In this document: positions 393 through 6,282 of the stretch, in pieces
Numbering within the stretch: the first letter of the stretch is position 1
Layout of the letters: every line of letters begins with the position of its first letter
Source of the DNA: Thermoplasmata archaeon
GTDB lineage: Archaea; Thermoplasmatota; Thermoplasmata; Thermoplasmatales; Thermoplasmataceae
Reading direction: 5' to 3'
Assembly (NCBI GenBank): GCA_021827885.1
Contig: JAKAUD010000127.1
Location: 1 to 6,435, forward strand
DNA length: 6,435 nucleotides
Notes under the pieces: generated by a model
Databases searched by the model: none
What the model saw: only the letters and a program-made list of their open reading frames with translations
Told to the model about the DNA's origin: nothing
Position numbers and translations under genes: made by a program

Positions 393-1220
393 ATGGTACT
401 GCTTAGGGAAACCGTATCCCAGAGAAAATTCATACGATCCATGGAATTCCTTCCTGGGAAGCACCTCGGGAATTCCGACATGGATAAGGTATCGGAAAAG
501 GTTTCCAGCCTTGTTGATGTAGTGACTGTACCGGAAAATCCCCTTGGAAATCCAGGGATCGATCCCATCCTGTCTCTCTATGCCCTTTCAGAAAAAATGG
601 ATTTCATTGCAATACCGCATCTTACCCCAAGGGATAAAAATTCACTGCATTTGAGGTCTCAGGCCATGAGTGCCCTGAAACTGGGCATCAGGAATTTCTT
701 TGTGGTTTATGGCGACCCTATATCAGAGAGAATCCAGGCAAAGGAGGTCAGGGAGCTGGATGTTCTTGGAACAATTAGGACATTGAAGGATTCAAGGAAC
801 GAATTCAAGGGAACACCCGGGGAGATTTCAATGAACGTTGGGGCAGCTGCAAATCCACACAGGGAGAATGAGCTTGAAAACATCGAACGAAAGAGATCTG
901 CAGGCGCTGACTTTTTCATTACCCAGGCCATATTCGATTCGGAGGCAATGAAGAAAGAATGGATCAATGGAAAGGATTACATGATCCTTGCAGGATTCAT
1001 CCCGCTGAAGAAGAAATCGCAGATAGACGTAATGGAGAAGATGGGCATTAAATTCTCTCCTGATGTCAGGAGAAAACTGGAGAATTCTGACAACATTGAG
1101 CAGGATTCCGTCAGGGTCGTGCTTGAAATATTTGATGATATAAGGGATATGGTAAGCGGTATACACATTATGCCAATGGGAAAGACGGATCTGGCAAAAA
1201 CTATTTTGGAGAGTGTTTAG
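393..1220 (+). CDS. metF: Methylenetetrahydrofolate (methylene-tetrahydropterin) reductase, MetF family
   Basis: 275 residues, the length of single-domain MetF enzymes. These FAD-containing cytoplasmic TIM barrels reduce the 5,10-methylene form of tetrahydrofolate or a related pterin to the 5-methyl form. Visible family motifs in order: SMEFLPGK (16-23; E18 matches the catalytic Glu of 'EFFPP'), VTVPENPLGNP (44-54), IPHLTPRDKN (74-83), YGDP (106-109; D108 matches the flavin-contacting Asp), ANPHRE (153-158), GADFFITQAIFD (171-182; Q178) and GIHIMPMG (256-263) near the end. I chose ATG 393 because E18 needs a preceding strand; ATG 441 would leave only one residue before it. No Shine-Dalgarno is present, consistent with a leaderless message. 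It is the first gene of an operon: the MetE N-domain gene follows after 4 nt. The pterin (folate, methanopterin or another) and the electron donor cannot be read from sequence. Confidence 0.9.
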   Translation: MVLLRETVSQRKFIRSMEFLPGKHLGNSDMDKVSEKVSSLVDVVTVPENPLGNPGIDPILSLYALSEKMDFIAIPHLTPRDKNSLHLRSQAMSALKLGIRNFFVVYGDPISERIQAKEVRELDVLGTIRTLKDSRNEFKGTPGEISMNVGAAANPHRENELENIERKRSAGADFFITQAIFDSEAMKKEWINGKDYMILAGFIPLKKKSQIDVMEKMGIKFSPDVRRKLENSDNIEQDSVRVVLEIFDDIRDMVSGIHIMPMGKTDLAKTILESV

Positions 1221-1224
1221 TAGA

Positions 1225-2115
1225 ATGATATATGATAAGGCAATTTTTGGAATTTATCCGAGGAGTGAAAGCCTCAGGGTTAGTATAGGCAGGTATGAGC
1301 GCGGTAAACTTGATGGAAACATCAGGGACATAATGGCAGATGAGAAAAGGAAGTTTTACAGGTTCGCAGAAAAGAACAATGTAGGCGTTGCTGGCGATCC
1401 ACTTTTCAACTGGCATGACATATATCGCCCTCTTTTTTCCCTATTTTCAGGGCTTGAGCAGGGGGAACTTCACAGGTACAAAGAAACAAACACATTCTAC
1501 CGGAAGCCTATATTTGCAGGGGATGTGAAACTCTCCTCTGATCCACTGAAGCCTGGAGAAGACGAATTCTCAACGCCTGTCTACCTTCCTGATGTGCATG
1601 GGTTGAGATATCTTTTCCTTCCCTCACCTTTATCCGTCCTAAGGGACGCTGAGAATGTGAAGGAAAAGAGCAGGAAGCAATTGCTTGAGGCATTTAAGGA
1701 TCTAATAGATCTGGTTAAACATGATTTTACTATATTCTACGAGCATTATGACATTGACGGGAAACTGCTTGAGGAAATCTCGACTATTACAGATACGTCA
1801 GAGTCCATAGTGGTATCCCCACAATCAAATCTTGCAGCAAATAGTGATCTGCGAAAATACGGATTCAACGGAATTGTGTCGGGGAATCCTGAAGATCTTC
1901 AAAAAAACCTTGAATCATCTGGAACGAGCTTCATCCCATTCTGGAACTGCAGGCGAACTTCAATAGAATCGGCAGGATCAATAGAGAAGCTCCTGGATCA
2001 TGTTAAGGGCAGTATAGTGGATTCGCAGAAATATACCATATGCAATACTGATTTCTTTGATTTCCTTCCACGGGAAATTGCCGACAGGAAAGTAGCATTT
2101 GACGGGGTGGCATAA
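1225..2115 (+). CDS. Cobalamin-independent methionine synthase, MetE N-terminal-domain protein
   Basis: 296 residues matching the N-terminal barrel of MetE, encoded as a separate protein as in several archaea. In one-piece MetE this half helps bind the methyl-tetrahydropteroyl donor, while the other half does catalysis. Motifs: FGIYPRSESLR (8-18, cf. 'IGSYPR'), AGDPLFNWHDIYRP (56-69), LHRYKETNTFYRKP (82-95), FLPSPLSVLR (131-140) and a C-terminal CNTDFFDFLPREIADRKV (273-290), the usual 'leyLP...A.kK' end of this domain. It lacks the H-x-C...E...C zinc set, so it is not itself the methyltransferase. I prefer ATG 1225 over the GTG at 1213: GGAGAG at 1208-1213 precedes ATG 1225 by 11 nt but would overlap the GTG. 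It lies 4 nt after metF and 1 nt before the catalytic partner gene, so co-translation and complex formation are likely. Confidence 0.88.
   Translation: MIYDKAIFGIYPRSESLRVSIGRYERGKLDGNIRDIMADEKRKFYRFAEKNNVGVAGDPLFNWHDIYRPLFSLFSGLEQGELHRYKETNTFYRKPIFAGDVKLSSDPLKPGEDEFSTPVYLPDVHGLRYLFLPSPLSVLRDAENVKEKSRKQLLEAFKDLIDLVKHDFTIFYEHYDIDGKLLEEISTITDTSESIVVSPQSNLAANSDLRKYGFNGIVSGNPEDLQKNLESSGTSFIPFWNCRRTSIESAGSIEKLLDHVKGSIVDSQKYTICNTDFFDFLPREIADRKVAFDGVA
2104..2110 (+). promoter_or_regulatory. Ribosome binding site GGGGTGG for the MetE catalytic-domain gene
   Basis: GGGGTGG lies inside the last codons of the upstream gene, 6 nt before ATG 2117, and resembles the archaeal GGTG-type Shine-Dalgarno. It decides the start at 2117 over the longer TTG frame from 2099. 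It also shows that the two MetE halves are separately initiated and not products of a frameshifted single gene. Confidence 0.7.
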
Positions 2116-2116
2116 A

Positions 2117-3151
2117 ATGGTTAAGTTCATAACGCAGGAGATAGGAAGCCTGAGGAAACCGGAATATCTTTCCACAAAGTTCCACAGGCTCAGCGACAGG
2201 GAGAGATCGGAAATTGCGGCAAAAGCCGCGAAAGAGATGATAAAGAGATTTGAGGGTATCGGCATCGACAATCTCGGAATCGCCGGGGAGATGTATCGAT
2301 GGGAGATGTACGAGCATCTTGCAAAATACGTGGAAGGAATAAAGTTCTACGGTCATGTGAGATCGTTCGATAACAGGTATTACCTCAAGGGCAGCGTGAC
2401 ATCAGGCCTCACCTTGAAGGAATCGCCTCATTCTGAGGAATTCGAATTTGTCCTGAATAACACAAACCTTGACGTGAAAGTACCAATAACAGGGCCATAC
2501 ACAATGATGGACTGGTCATTCAATGATCATTACGGAAAGAGGGAAGACCTTGCAATGGCATTTGCCAGGGTAATAAATGTAGAAATACACAACCTCAAGA
2601 AGATATGGCAAAGATCAGGCAGGTCTGGCTTGCTGCAAATACAGATAGACGAACCTGCAGGGACGACCCATAAGAATGAATCGCAGATCCTGATAGATTC
2701 CGTGAACGAATCCATCAAGGGTATCAGCGACTGTGAGTTTACCATACATGTCTGTTATACCAGTGGATATCCGGATTTCTTCAAATCCGTTCCTGAACTA
2801 AAATTACATGGCCTTAACCTTGAATTTGCAAACAGGGATACCGATTCATTGGGGATATCAGATGATGCAAGGAAGGGCTATACATATTTGAGAAATTACG
2901 TTGAGGCACTGGAAACAGCTGATCAGAGGATGTTCATGGGACTTGGGGTGATAGATGTCCACAGGGATTTCGTGGAGCCACCGGAACTTATCCGGGACAG
3001 GATACTCTATGCAAATAGAATCATTGGCGATCCAGGTCTTTTAAGAGTCAACCCTGATTGTGGGCTCAGGACTAGATCCATAGAGGTATCTTTCCAAAAA
3101 CTTGAGAATATGGTAAATGGAGTAAAGCTTGCGGAGGATCAGATCAAATAG
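2117..3151 (+). CDS. metE: Cobalamin-independent methionine synthase, MetE catalytic (C-terminal) domain protein
   Basis: 344 residues, the zinc-dependent methyltransferase half of MetE. It moves a methyl group to the thiol of homocysteine, giving methionine. All four zinc ligands of the family are visible: H211 and C213 in TIHVCYTSGYP, E236 in LNLEFANRD, and C315 in VNPDCGLRTR. Other landmarks are QEIGSLRKP (7-15), VPITGPYTMMDWSF (122-135), QIQIDEPA (174-181; D178) and GLGVIDVHRDFVEP (275-288; H282 matches the conserved His of 'GVYDIHS'). The start ATG 2117 is set by GGGGTGG 6 nt upstream. With metF and the MetE N-domain gene directly before it, this should be a methyl-pterin-dependent synthase. 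Core synthases using corrinoid proteins also resemble this domain, but they lack an N-domain partner. Last gene of the operon. Confidence 0.9.
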   Translation: MVKFITQEIGSLRKPEYLSTKFHRLSDRERSEIAAKAAKEMIKRFEGIGIDNLGIAGEMYRWEMYEHLAKYVEGIKFYGHVRSFDNRYYLKGSVTSGLTLKESPHSEEFEFVLNNTNLDVKVPITGPYTMMDWSFNDHYGKREDLAMAFARVINVEIHNLKKIWQRSGRSGLLQIQIDEPAGTTHKNESQILIDSVNESIKGISDCEFTIHVCYTSGYPDFFKSVPELKLHGLNLEFANRDTDSLGISDDARKGYTYLRNYVEALETADQRMFMGLGVIDVHRDFVEPPELIRDRILYANRIIGDPGLLRVNPDCGLRTRSIEVSFQKLENMVNGVKLAEDQIK

Positions 3152-3298: not shown

Positions 3299-3631
3299 TT
3301 AGTATTCAACGATTATTTCTCTATCATTCTCTATTATGTTGAAAAGTTTCAGGTCGCCACTATCATGGTAATCCTTCATTGTGACAGGAATCGGGTTGTG
3401 AATTATTTCTCCGGTCAATAGTGAAAATGTTATCTTGTGGCTTGGGCAGGTGATGCAGCTTTCCGGTTTGAGCTTGCCCATGAAAAGCGGACCCTTGCGA
3501 TGGGGGCATTTTGAATCGTATGCAAAATATTTTCCTTCCCAGAATGCGACCGTGAGATCAACATCAGGAAGTTCGAATCTTCTTTTATCACCTTCCTTGA
3601 GGGAATCCTTATTGATCTTTATGGAAGGCAA
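3299..3631 (-). CDS. Small Rieske [2Fe-2S] ferredoxin-like protein
   Basis: 110 residues, a single soluble Rieske domain. The cluster ligands are C42 and H44 (KCPHRKGP) and C62 and H65 (TCPSHKITFSLLTGEI), i.e. C-x-H-x17-C-x2-H. The second motif has the 'F-L-TGE' continuation seen in ferredoxin subunits of dioxygenases and NirD-like proteins. The extra cysteine pair that makes the disulfide of high-potential bc1-type Rieske proteins is absent; C59 is the only other Cys. A low-to-medium potential electron carrier in the cytoplasm is therefore likely. There is no signal or membrane segment. The start is TTG 3631, supported by AAGGAG 9 nt upstream; no in-frame ATG comes before residue 51, which is too late. 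It is the third gene behind thioredoxin and thioredoxin reductase, with a 6-nt gap, which suggests a role in electron supply to or from that pair. Confidence 0.9.
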   Translation of the reverse strand: MPSIKINKDSLKEGDKRRFELPDVDLTVAFWEGKYFAYDSKCPHRKGPLFMGKLKPESCITCPSHKITFSLLTGEIIHNPIPVTMKDYHDSGDLKLFNIIENDREIIVEY

Positions 3632-3637
3632 GGAAGC

Positions 3638-4600
3638 TTACTCCTTCTTAGAATCGATAAATTTCCAGTCGGACTTCAAGGACCCTTTTCCTCTCTTCTT
3701 ATGGAGGTAGTTTATGCATGATAGGGCAGCAACGGATCCCTGGCCTGCGGATATTACGGCCTGCTTGTAAGGGATATTAGTCACGTCACCGCATGCGTAT
3801 ATCCCTGGCTGGCTTGTTGCACAGAATTGATCGACAATAACTTCCCCTTCCTTGTTAAGGTTGACCAGATCGCCAACAAACGACGTTTTCGCTACATAAC
3901 CCATTTCGACAAACACTGCCTCCACAGGCAGTTTTTGCTGCTCTCCCGTTTTGGCATCTTTTAGCATTAAATACTCCACGTTCTTGTTTCCGGATATCTC
4001 CTCTATCTCCTTTTCTGTAAGGAAAGAAACATTCTCGTGAGCCTTCACATCCTCAACCATATCTGAACTTCCCGATATTTTCTGTCCCTTTTGAATAACG
4101 GAAACTTTCGATGCAACAGTGCTCAGGTAAAGGGCAGCCTGGAGCGCATGATCTCCTGCACCTGCAACAGCCACTTCTTTGCCTTTATATAATGGGCCAT
4201 CGCATATGGAGCAATATGAGACTCCAAGCCCCTTGAATTTGTCTTCTCCTTTCACATTCAGGTCTCTTGGGGTCTTTCCAAACGCAAGGATAAGTCCCTC
4301 GCTTTCAAATTCTCCGCTGAATGTTTTTACCTTGAATAACTCCCCGGATTTTGATATTTCGGTTACCTCATCGTAGACGAATTTCACGCCATACAGGGTT
4401 GCCTGTTCCTGAAATTTTGAGGCAAGGTCGAACCCGGAAATTGAATTGAATCCAGGATAGTTCTGGATATCTGTTGTAAGAAGTCCCTGCCCGCCAATAT
4501 CCTTTGTTATTAGCAGGGTATTCATCCCCTGCCTTGCTGAATATATGGCGGCGGTTAAACCTGCAAAGGCTCCGCCTATGATGATAATATCATTGTCCAT
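3638..4600 (-). CDS. trxB: Thioredoxin reductase-like FAD protein with altered NADPH site
   Basis: 320 residues, normal for low-molecular-weight thioredoxin reductases. FAD-binding motifs: IIIIGGAFAGLTAAIYSAR (5-23) and the C-terminal GIYACGDVTN (266-275). The redox-active disulfide is C130-SI-C133 in YCSICDGP (usual form CATCDG). The second nucleotide fold is present as VAGAGDHALQAA (145-156). Where NADPH-using enzymes have HRRxxxR to hold the 2'-phosphate, this protein has VIQKGQKISGS (168-178), without the His-Arg-Arg. A Thermoplasma acidophilum homologue has been reported not to use NADPH or NADH, so the donor here is uncertain. It probably reduces the thioredoxin encoded just upstream: ATG 4600 follows that stop by one nucleotide, with only a weak Shine-Dalgarno, suggesting coupled translation. 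The Rieske gene follows after 6 nt. Confidence 0.92.
   Translation of the reverse strand: MDNDIIIIGGAFAGLTAAIYSARQGMNTLLITKDIGGQGLLTTDIQNYPGFNSISGFDLASKFQEQATLYGVKFVYDEVTEISKSGELFKVKTFSGEFESEGLILAFGKTPRDLNVKGEDKFKGLGVSYCSICDGPLYKGKEVAVAGAGDHALQAALYLSTVASKVSVIQKGQKISGSSDMVEDVKAHENVSFLTEKEIEEISGNKNVEYLMLKDAKTGEQQKLPVEAVFVEMGYVAKTSFVGDLVNLNKEGEVIVDQFCATSQPGIYACGDVTNIPYKQAVISAGQGSVAALSCINYLHKKRGKGSLKSDWKFIDSKKE
3641..3646 (-). promoter_or_regulatory. Ribosome binding site AAGGAG deciding the TTG start of the Rieske gene
   Basis: On the minus strand AAGGAG is followed by 9 nt and then TTG 3631. It lies inside the last codons of the reductase gene (…SKKE-stop), so the two genes are translationally linked. 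It is what makes the rare TTG start credible. Confidence 0.65.
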
Positions 4601-4601
4601 T

Positions 4602-5003
4602 TTAATTCAACAACTTCTTTATTCTCGCATCAAGCATGGGTTTTGGCACTGCGCCAATGCTCATGTCAACCATTTTTCCGTCCTTAAACATAAGCACGGT
4701 TGGAATGCTTCGAATGTTGAATTCAGTCGAAACACTTGGATTCTCATCCACATTCAACTTTCCAAACGTAACCTTGCCAGAATAATCCTTCGCCAACTCC
4801 TCTATTACTGGGGAAAGATATCTGCAGGGTCCGCACCAGGCTGCCCAAAAATCAACCACCAAAATCTTCTCTGTCGCAACGCTGTTCTTAAAGTTCTCAT
4901 CATTCAATTCTATCGGTTTCACTTCTTTCACCTTTCCTGACATAATATCTTTAAGCATCTTCTGCCTAATCATTTCAATGTCATCATTGACCCTTTCTGT
5001 CAA
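4602..5003 (-). CDS. trxA: Thioredoxin with N-terminal helical extension
   Basis: 133 residues from the TTG at 5003. The thioredoxin fold carries VVDFWAAWCGPCRYLSPVIEE with the WCGPC active site at 56-60, then KLNVDENP and the cis-proline in RSIPTVLMF (P101). It reduces protein disulfides in the cytoplasm. A predicted charged helix (about residues 7-23, NDDIEMIRQKMLKDIMSG) and a short linker precede the domain, making it some 25 residues longer than E. coli thioredoxin. Start choice: TTG 5003 has AAGGTGA (5015-5009) with a 5-nt spacer. GTG 5012, three codons earlier, would itself lie in that signal but remains possible as a leaderless start. Internal ATGs also exist (e.g. at 4973) but lack a good signal. 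It is the first gene of the trxA-trxB-Rieske operon and is divergent from the winged-helix regulator. Confidence 0.93.
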   Translation of the reverse strand: MTERVNDDIEMIRQKMLKDIMSGKVKEVKPIELNDENFKNSVATEKILVVDFWAAWCGPCRYLSPVIEELAKDYSGKVTFGKLNVDENPSVSTEFNIRSIPTVLMFKDGKMVDMSIGAVPKPMLDARIKKLLN

Positions 5004-5008
5004 CCTAT

Positions 5009-5015
5009 TCACCTT
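5009..5015 (-). promoter_or_regulatory. Ribosome binding site AAGGTGA for thioredoxin
   Basis: Minus-strand AAGGTGA is an extended match to the archaeal anti-Shine-Dalgarno and stands 5 nt before TTG 5003. It argues for the TTG start rather than GTG 5012, which it contains. Confidence 0.5.
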
Positions 5016-5111: not shown

Positions 5112-5519
5112 ATGTCCGGTGGAAATTCCCTTTACAAAGTATCATTGAAAAGTGCATGTTGTGATGACCTTTTAACCTGCCTTTTCATGCTTGGACAGAC
5201 AGATATATTGCTATTCAACTGCATGGCATTCAACAGTGAGTACACACTTGATGATCTGGCGCAACTGTCAGGGAAGGACAAAACCACAGTGTTCAGGTCA
5301 TTGCAGAAGATGGTCAGCATTGGGATTGTGATAAAAAATACGAAAACTATTGCAAGAGGTGGATATTACCACACCTATTACCTCAGTGACATGGAAAATA
5401 TAAGGAAAATCTCACTTGAGCGAATAAATGCAACGCATGATGGATTCCTGCAATTATTAGATCAGCTTCTCAAGGATATATCCATGAGAATAAAGCCCGT
5501 TGAGAGTTCATCTAATTAG
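5112..5519 (+). CDS. Winged-helix transcriptional regulator (TrmB/MarR-like), cysteine-containing
   Basis: 135 residues. A winged helix spans about 27-92: TDILLFNCMAF (helix 1), YTLDDLAQLSG (helix 2), KDKTTVFRSLQKMVSIGIVI (recognition helix and turn), then TIARGGYYHTYYLSD (wing). The 'DKTTVFRSLQKM' and 'GGYYHTYY' segments resemble a widespread archaeal family of small TrmB/MarR-like regulators. A C-terminal amphipathic helix (about 94-126) could dimerise. C16, C17 and C23 (SACCDDLLTC) lie before the DNA-binding domain and C37 in helix 1, so thiol sensing or metal binding is possible but unproven. The ATG start is set by the TATA box 26 bp upstream. It is divergent from the thioredoxin operon, its likely target, and may also control itself. 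The last 12 bp overlap the convergent membrane-protein gene. Ligand unknown. Confidence 0.8.
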   Translation: MSGGNSLYKVSLKSACCDDLLTCLFMLGQTDILLFNCMAFNSEYTLDDLAQLSGKDKTTVFRSLQKMVSIGIVIKNTKTIARGGYYHTYYLSDMENIRKISLERINATHDGFLQLLDQLLKDISMRIKPVESSSN

Positions 5520-5879
5520 GATAATAAACCCTGCAATGAGTCCAAACAATGTGCCTATAACAAAACCGCCACCGCCTATTATGGCAACTAAGCTTAGCAG
5601 CATTATAATGAATCCATTGACGAAATGGTCTCTATTCGTTCTTCTCATTCTGTCTGTGATACCGAAAATGGTGGCTCCGCAAAACATTGCTATAAGGGCA
5701 AAGATTACTCCAGTTACCCCTGTGAGCACAATAAAATCAAATGAAACTCTGTGTATAGCCAACCCTACTGATGCAAACAGAGTTCCAATTAGGATTAGGA
5801 ATCCGTTAAGAACGATTAATACCGCACTGAGTAAACCCAGAATGTAGGTTAAATCTCCTGCTGCTGCCCTAGATGACAT
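5508..5879 (-). CDS. Small four-helix membrane protein, function unknown
   Basis: 123 residues, strongly hydrophobic. Likely membrane segments lie at about 11-38, 49-73, 87-104 and 105-121. The short hydrophilic stretch between segments 2 and 3 is basic (TDRMRRTNRDH, 75-85). The third and fourth segments are joined by a glycine-rich turn (AIIGGGGFVIGTLFGLIAG), a pattern common in small uncharacterised archaeal membrane proteins of the DUF4064 kind; I do not assign the family. No catalytic or metal-binding motif is visible. I chose ATG 5879: the TTG at 5888 would add only three residues, and an AT-rich TATA-like stretch is centred about 27 bp upstream of the ATG. It is convergent with the regulator gene, overlapping its end by 12 bp, and is not obviously linked in function to its neighbours. 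Confidence 0.75.
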   Translation of the reverse strand: MSSRAAAGDLTYILGLLSAVLIVLNGFLILIGTLFASVGLAIHRVSFDFIVLTGVTGVIFALIAMFCGATIFGITDRMRRTNRDHFVNGFIIMLLSLVAIIGGGGFVIGTLFGLIAGFIILIR

Positions 5880-5900
5880 TATACTCAATCAATTAATAAG

Positions 5901-5964: not shown

Positions 5965-6282
5965 TTACACGATTCTTACCTGCTCTTTCAGTATATTTTC
6001 CTTGAGATGAATATTTATGGAGCTAAAAGTTAGAATGTCAACCTTGATTCCTATTTCAGCTTCTATTGCTTCTTTCAGCGATATTAGATCAAATAGACCA
6101 CATCCATCAAGAAACTCTACAATCAAATCAAGATCGCTCTTGTTATTGTATGTTCCCCTGGCTCTGGAACCAAAAACGGATGCTCTCATAATTTTAAACC
6201 CGTTAAGTATTCTGGTAACCTTTTGAATAATCTCCTCGTTTGAGAGTATAGTTCCTTTTTTCTGTGTGATGATGTTAACCAA
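5965..6282 (-). CDS. Minimal nucleotidyltransferase (MNT domain, MntA-type antitoxin-like)
   Basis: 105 residues, the usual size of a lone MNT domain of the DNA polymerase beta superfamily. The signature is SVFGSRARGTYNNKSDLDLIVEF (35-57): the GS of GSRARG at 38-39, then the metal-binding D50 and D52. The third carboxylate is D82 in IKVDILTF. All three acidic residues are present, so it should be catalytically able. In HEPN/MNT toxin-antitoxin pairs such proteins inactivate a HEPN RNase, in characterised cases by adding AMP groups to it; other MNT proteins are orphans of unknown role. No HEPN gene is found within the visible flanks. The start is TTG 6282, the only usual start codon between the upstream in-frame TAA and the motif that has a nearby purine-rich signal (GCGAGGGA immediately before). 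A TATA box lies 32 bp upstream. Confidence 0.85.
   Translation of the reverse strand: MVNIITQKKGTILSNEEIIQKVTRILNGFKIMRASVFGSRARGTYNNKSDLDLIVEFLDGCGLFDLISLKEAIEAEIGIKVDILTFSSINIHLKENILKEQVRIV

Follow-up and report, generated by a model that had tools for sequence, protein, structure and literature searches.

A trxA–trxB–Rieske gene unit in the Thermoplasmataceae: an FFTR-like thioredoxin reductase and a Rieske protein as its candidate electron partner

The window analyzed in this study, a stretch of 6,435 nucleotides from a Thermoplasmata archaeon, carries a thioredoxin gene (trxA), a thioredoxin reductase gene (trxB) and the gene of a small Rieske protein in succession (Table 1). An earlier note on this DNA had described these as one gene unit, and we confirmed its coordinates and found the unit conserved in relatives. 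A single nucleotide (4601) separates trxA from trxB, the 6-nt spacing claimed for trxB and the Rieske gene was borne out (3632–3637), and the ribosome-binding-like site that had been placed inside the reductase gene is indeed there, as a GGAG in the final trxB codons (AAG AAG GAG TAA), 9 nt upstream of the Rieske start codon. Alternative start codons further downstream are possible for trxA. In the window's own assembly the Rieske gene is divided between two contigs, and the MAG E-plasma (TrxB 86%) is the closest strain-named relative in the set of named loci. The Lrs14/Sta1-like regulator gene upstream of trxA is retained next to it in most genera, and in the E-plasma genus and some members of the Cuniculiplasma genus, the gene of a hydrophobic protein adjoins that of the regulator. 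Behind the Rieske gene, on the other strand, lies metE, which is split and stands next to an MTHFR gene. The MNT-type nucleotidyltransferase gene has no recognisable partner gene in the window, and an Rfam scan of the window at the gathering threshold gave no match.

Table 1. Genes and sequence features located in the window
Feature	Position	Strand	Description
trxA	4602-5012	minus	thioredoxin, WCGPC site; PF00085 1e-30; TIGR01068 above cut-off
trxB	3638-4600	minus	FFTR-like (by sequence) flavoprotein thioredoxin reductase; CSIC 130-133, no HRRxxxR, C-terminal ...KSDWK (W312)
Rieske gene	3299-3631	minus	TTG start, 110 aa, single-domain [2Fe-2S]; Pfam PF00355 E 3.1e-14
KSDWK tail codons of TrxB (residues 309-313)	3662-3676	minus	W312 aligned with Gloeobacter FFTR tail (5j60/6xtf)
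GGAG, ribosome-binding-like site for Rieske gene	3641-3644	minus	inside trxB 3' end
Lrs14/Sta1-like HTH regulator	5112-5519	plus	divergent, upstream of trxA; NF053606 6e-12, below its cut-off
Hydrophobic protein	5508-5888	minus	126 aa; no Pfam match
MTHFR, MetE N-domain-like protein, core methionine synthase	393-3151	plus	consecutive, ORFs overlapping; MetE N-domain-like NF005029 below cut-off, core synthase NF002272 above cut-off
MNT-type nucleotidyltransferase	5965-6282	minus	PF18765

TrxB has the thioredoxin reductase (TrxR) fold, with an FAD domain and a CxxC domain, as judged from family matches, an AlphaFold model (mean pLDDT 89, pTM 0.76) and a structural search. It matched TIGR01292 with an E-value of 2.2e-94, yet its score of 315.6 bits lies below the cut-off of 343.45. 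The CxxC is C130-S-I-C133, and QKGQKIS is found where the NADP motif HRRxxxR would stand. The claim that the reductase is unable to bind NADPH therefore stood in part: the NADP-specific HRRxxxR is absent, but the Rossmann pattern GxGxxA (147–152) is still present. We infer that TrxB no longer uses NADPH; binding of NADH is still possible on sequence grounds, since GxGxxA has been kept.

In a comparison of the last 80 residues of TrxB with the PDB, only the ferredoxin-dependent flavin thioredoxin reductase (FFTR) of Gloeobacter (5j60, 6xtf) reached W312 among the 60 rows listed, with SLKSDW of TrxB aligned to AIKPDW; the aligned Trp of 5j60 is W315, as deduced from the chain length and the numbering in PMC12796991. 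In that paper, W315 of one FFTR subunit is described as stacking on the FAD of the other, the ferredoxin that donates electrons holds its [2Fe-2S] cluster over the FAD and in line with the flavin, and TrxR-like ferredoxin-NADP reductases likewise stack an aromatic residue on FAD. One of the latter, 3ab1, also aligned into the tail (position 316) in a whole-protein profile search. Over its whole length TrxB was nearer to ordinary TrxRs than to FFTR (5j60 ranked 30th, and 37th in the profile search), and a structural search with the TrxB model did not single out FFTR. Because FFTR is not the nearest relative over the whole length, we refer to TrxB as FFTR-like and not as a member of FFTR.

The tail is widespread among relatives of TrxB. 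Of 8000 scored candidate homologs, 7974 passed an E-value of 1e-30, and among the best 120 of these 7974 a [DEN]W[KR] tail was found in 120/120 and HRRxxxR in 0/120. Similarly, in 68 aligned proteins of the window's reductase type (type A), the tail Trp was present in 67 rows, with a gap in the remaining one. The lack of HRRxxxR and the Trp tail, an FFTR-like feature absent from the earlier note, together make TrxB look FFTR-like and suggest that it may be fed by ferredoxin, and its FFTR-like character is the best supported part of the whole interpretation. The same counts argue against TrxB using NADH or another soluble hydride donor, with the Rieske protein incidental, a reading that the retained GxGxxA motif would favour and that we regard as very improbable; in addition, PMC5627308 refers to the TrxR of T. 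acidophilum, another enzyme without the NADP motif, as a non-NAD(P)H TR.

TrxR-like matches, counted at E ≤ 1e-20, were present in 73 of the 77 genomes of the window's family. Type A proteins (about 49–100% identity to the window's TrxB) occur in 17 of the 19 family genera, and their genes usually, not always, lie behind trxA next to the Lrs14-like gene. A second type is the T. acidophilum TrxR, represented by a protein (L133) identical to 3cty over 319 residues, and a third type is canonical-looking, with HR[RNK][DE]xF[RK]AS (L136, L138, L139, L141 and L144); the closest PDB entries to the L136 protein are ordinary TrxRs. Type A-like proteins with 49–53% identity are also encoded at four Nitrososphaerota loci (L123, L124, L125 and L128), where the gene is not directly behind trxA and no Rieske gene was seen in the fetched flank.

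The Rieske protein is, as had been claimed, a single-domain protein, with cluster ligands at C42-P-H44 and C62-PS-H65. The ligands were kept in 12/12 and 34/34 rows of two alignments, and two proteins (P0023 and P0024) have CISH in place of CPSH with the Cys and His ligands intact. A model of the protein (mean pLDDT 97) had dioxygenase Rieske ferredoxins as its closest folds. The disulfide cysteines that mark high-potential Rieske proteins, according to a figure legend (PMC2946596, Figure 3), are absent, and the protein is for this reason probably of the low-potential type. The family is a narrow one of 25 proteins, including the window's own, at E ≤ 1.5e-36, the next match being at 5.6e-12. 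Caldiplasma sukawensis is among its members. For six of the 25, Caldiplasma among them, the longest contig has the same length as that recorded for a type A TrxB (108759 for Caldiplasma), and this agreement suggests that the trxB–Rieske linkage also holds for these six. Relative to E-plasma, the Rieske gene has a dN of 0.21, and dS was too high to compute. A second small Rieske protein, in a 118-aa frame, is encoded elsewhere in the window's genome (contig C139, 9712–9951).

Within the family, the Rieske gene was found in two genera, that of E-plasma (g1) and that of Cuniculiplasma (g5). It lies directly behind trxB in 14/14 of their trxB-bearing genomes (three of g1 and 11 of g5), with a 4-nt overlap of the two ORFs in eight of the 14. 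Two further genomes, one from each genus (G375, 86% complete, and G393, 72%), had no trxB match and a weak Rieske match. We examined 56 type A loci of other genera, of which three (L056, L077 and L097) could not be scored because the contig stops at, or less than, 19 nt behind the trxB match. Among the 53 scorable loci, with 1.1–2.9 kb visible, the Rieske gene was found behind trxB in none (tblastn with the window's Rieske protein, E ≤ 1), and a loose CxH–CxxH pattern searched in six frames in the flanks behind Rieske-less trxB genes gave five chance stretches with no Rieske similarity. A collection of named genomes, which overlaps in part with the family set, had the Rieske gene in 12 of 32 loci (L101–L111 and L129), including E-plasma and Cuniculiplasma sp. 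KMA_Bin18. The other 20, including Ferroplasma acidarmanus and the four Nitrososphaerota, lacked it, although in two of these, L122 and L130, the sequence stops at trxB or shortly after it, and 0.5 kb is visible in L124. In a sample of 400 genomes from the class, some Rieske match was present in 170; among the best 30 Rieske loci, trx genes were adjacent in 10 (L002–L011) and not in 19 (L012–L030), the remaining one (L001) being the window's own cut contig. The earlier note had looked to conservation of the pair across the Thermoplasmatales as a check, and the outcome is narrower: the association is genuine and has been maintained, though just within two genera and perhaps Caldiplasma.

Relatives whose Rieske proteins are as little as about 40% identical still share this gene order, and on that account we consider it more than chance. 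In a TrxB tree of 68 rows the Rieske-positive proteins form one clade (support 99/96), and the Rieske-less genus g9 is its neighbour (support of the joint clade, 100/99). Given this topology, either the Rieske gene joined an existing reductase type once and was then kept, or it was lost in g9 and elsewhere; the single joining is the simpler account. The pairing would then go back to one evolutionary event, so that the two genera count as one case. Because none of the 53 scorable type A loci in the other genera has the Rieske gene, a reductase of this type can do without the Rieske protein. A search for TrxB residues peculiar to the Rieske clade gave no signal: just three sites are fixed there (S131 inside the CxxC, E196 and H300), and six other genera had 0 to 18 such sites (g9, 4; g3, 4; g13, 3; g6, 0; g14, 9; g7, 18). 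The CxxC is CSIC in 14/14 Rieske-clade proteins, and residue 131 elsewhere is Ala in 50/54, Ser in 2/54 and Thr in 2/54; the difference could shift the disulfide potential.

Several of these results would also fit a Rieske protein that exchanges no electrons with TrxB and acts elsewhere, being merely co-expressed with the thioredoxin system, e.g., under oxidative stress: type A TrxB occurs without it in other genera, the clade-specific TrxB residues are few, and a further small Rieske protein was found in each of the five Rieske-operon genomes searched, implying that Rieske carriers are used elsewhere. Against this stand the tight coupling of the genes and their linkage in all trxB-bearing genomes of both genera, and we regard it as a serious possibility that stops short of being probable.

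Type A is the sole TrxR-like match (E ≤ 1e-20) in 13 of the 14 Rieske-operon genomes, including G067, which is one contig and 99% complete. The exception (G401, 71% complete) has a canonical-looking TrxR as well, on a 5.2-kb contig. A single TrxR-like match was also found in at least 11 of the 50 type A genomes without the Rieske gene, and some other Rieske-less genomes owe their additional matches to further copies of type A, to fragments or to reductases with about 28% identity. With regard to ferredoxins, a Fer4_7 search of 10 genomes left the Rieske genera seemingly without small ones, and sequence reading in the other genera gave PorD-like, FixX-like and NuoI-like proteins, a 70-aa ferredoxin and the zinc ferredoxin. 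The zinc ferredoxin was identified in 71 of the 77 family genomes, among them 4/4 of g1 and 12/12 of g5. In one g1 genome its gene is in two pieces, one with a stop (G162, contig C3, 82456–82882), and it is intact in the other three; the break is possibly an assembly error. Since none of the 16 genomes of g1 and g5 is without the zinc ferredoxin, the Rieske protein did not replace it, and the idea of a substitute for a lost ferredoxin was rejected in its case. Another redox partner behind Rieske-less trxB genes was likewise rejected: the next genes at 15 such named type A loci, judged by eye, are varied and none is redox-carrier-like.

The direction of any electron flow between the two proteins depends on their potentials. 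Low-potential Rieske clusters typically lie at about −150 mV. The cytoplasm is near pH 5.5; with each pH unit of acidification, flavins and disulfides gain about 59 mV in potential, and the potential of a Rieske cluster is roughly pH-independent in that range. For the Gloeobacter FFTR, PMC12796991 gives −448 mV for FAD, −356 mV for the disulfide and −424 mV for ferredoxin, with a pH 8.0 buffer named where FAD and ferredoxin were titrated. By analogy, a Rieske protein near −150 mV would hardly be able to reduce an FFTR-like FAD and would be able to accept electrons from it. Near pH 5.5 the FAD and Rieske couples may come close, so that donation by the Rieske protein may still be workable. PMC5627308 describes the T. 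acidophilum TrxR as having redox properties in common with canonical TrxRs.

If the FAD of TrxB is FFTR-like, the FAD-to-Rieske direction is thus the easier one, and the Rieske protein could be an electron acceptor, with a ferredoxin-fed TrxB reducing both thioredoxin (via the CSIC) and the Rieske protein, which would serve another enzyme. There is a precedent in the BphA3–BphA4 complex (2yvj), in which BphA4 serves BphA3 and electrons flow from FAD to Rieske; in the fold search with the Rieske model this complex ranked 18th. A client for such a carrier was sought in 14 genomes, five of them with the Rieske operon and the single-contig G067 included, and no ORF of Rieske-oxygenase size was seen, all 53 Rieske matches being in frames of ≤299 aa. 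Nor is there a client behind the Rieske gene in four Cuniculiplasma-side loci, in E-plasma or in the window, because the next gene is on the opposite strand or, in E-plasma, 151 nt away. An acceptor role in this form appears rather unlikely.

On balance, the best explanation that we can offer, and we offer it tentatively, is an FFTR-like TrxB with the Rieske protein as a dedicated one-electron partner of its FAD. TrxB would be independent of pyridine nucleotides, its FAD would be reduced by one-electron carriers and would pass electrons to the CSIC disulfide, and the resulting dithiol would reduce TrxA. The Rieske ferredoxin gene would have joined trxA–trxB in the ancestor shared by Cuniculiplasma and the E-plasma genus and then been kept. 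Its product would most likely dock near the FAD and swap single electrons with it, and we slightly favour a role in which it supplies the FAD with electrons in addition to the zinc ferredoxin, in lineages in which no other TrxR type was found. In favor of a partner are the 14/14 linkage, the single TrxB clade, the kept ligands, the FFTR-like tail, the lack of a second TrxR-like match in 13/14 genomes and the lack of an oxygenase-size client ORF. Against it, the Rieske protein is not required (0/53 elsewhere), the zinc ferredoxin is present, so that no donor is obviously missing, the clade-specific TrxB residues are few (three) and the pairing is one evolutionary event; against the donor direction in particular, the FAD of the cyanobacterial FFTR (−448 mV) is far below a typical low-potential Rieske cluster. 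With both directions taken together, we consider electron exchange between the Rieske protein and TrxB fairly probable. A Rieske-ferredoxin-dependent TrxR in Cuniculiplasma and the E-plasma genus, where the sole TrxR found would be fed by the operon-encoded Rieske protein, is a conceivable form of this about which we are hesitant. A "Rieske-driven" TrxB is possible, the opposite flow, out of the FAD and into the Rieske protein, is almost as probable, and the Rieske protein is best described as a testable candidate for the electron partner of TrxB.

These results bear on how archaeal TrxRs without the NADPH motif are fed, for which the locus offers two testable candidates: for type A TrxB as a whole a ferredoxin, to which the FFTR-like tail points, and for two genera a dedicated Rieske protein. 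Should the Rieske protein prove to be a donor, thiol redox control would gain a new electron input, possibly made workable by the acidity of the cytoplasm. A literature search covering titles and abstract openings gave no description of a trxB–Rieske pair, which fuller texts might mention, and in the portions of the literature found no Rieske protein is named as a TrxR donor.

Among known systems, the T. acidophilum TrxR (3cty) comes from a genome of the window's family and, like the window's TrxB, is without the NADPH motif, but it is of the second type, with 35% identity and no Trp tail, and no electron donor is named for it in the accessible text of PMC5627308. Genus g3, to which Ferroplasma belongs, has a TrxR of this type alongside type A. 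The Sulfolobus ARF and the bacterial dioxygenase Rieske ferredoxins share the CxH...CxxH ligands and the lack of disulfide cysteines with the window's Rieske protein, which is about 19–25% identical to the single-domain ferredoxins among its nearest PDB folds; unlike in the window, no link to trx genes is mentioned for them in the parts of the sources consulted. As with TrxB and its Rieske neighbor, BphA4–BphA3 (2yvj) pairs an FAD flavoprotein with a single-domain Rieske ferredoxin. BphA4 differs as an NADH-dependent enzyme outside the thioredoxin reductases that has a dioxygenase as its client. For FFTR itself, the known donor is Fdx1 and not a Rieske protein, and the window's TrxB is nearer to ordinary TrxRs over its whole length, but the two have in common the TrxR fold, the CxxC and the C-terminal K-x-D-W tail; FFTR makes no use of NADPH, as the window's TrxB is without the NADP motif, and it combines an FAD-stacking Trp with a one-electron [2Fe-2S] donor.
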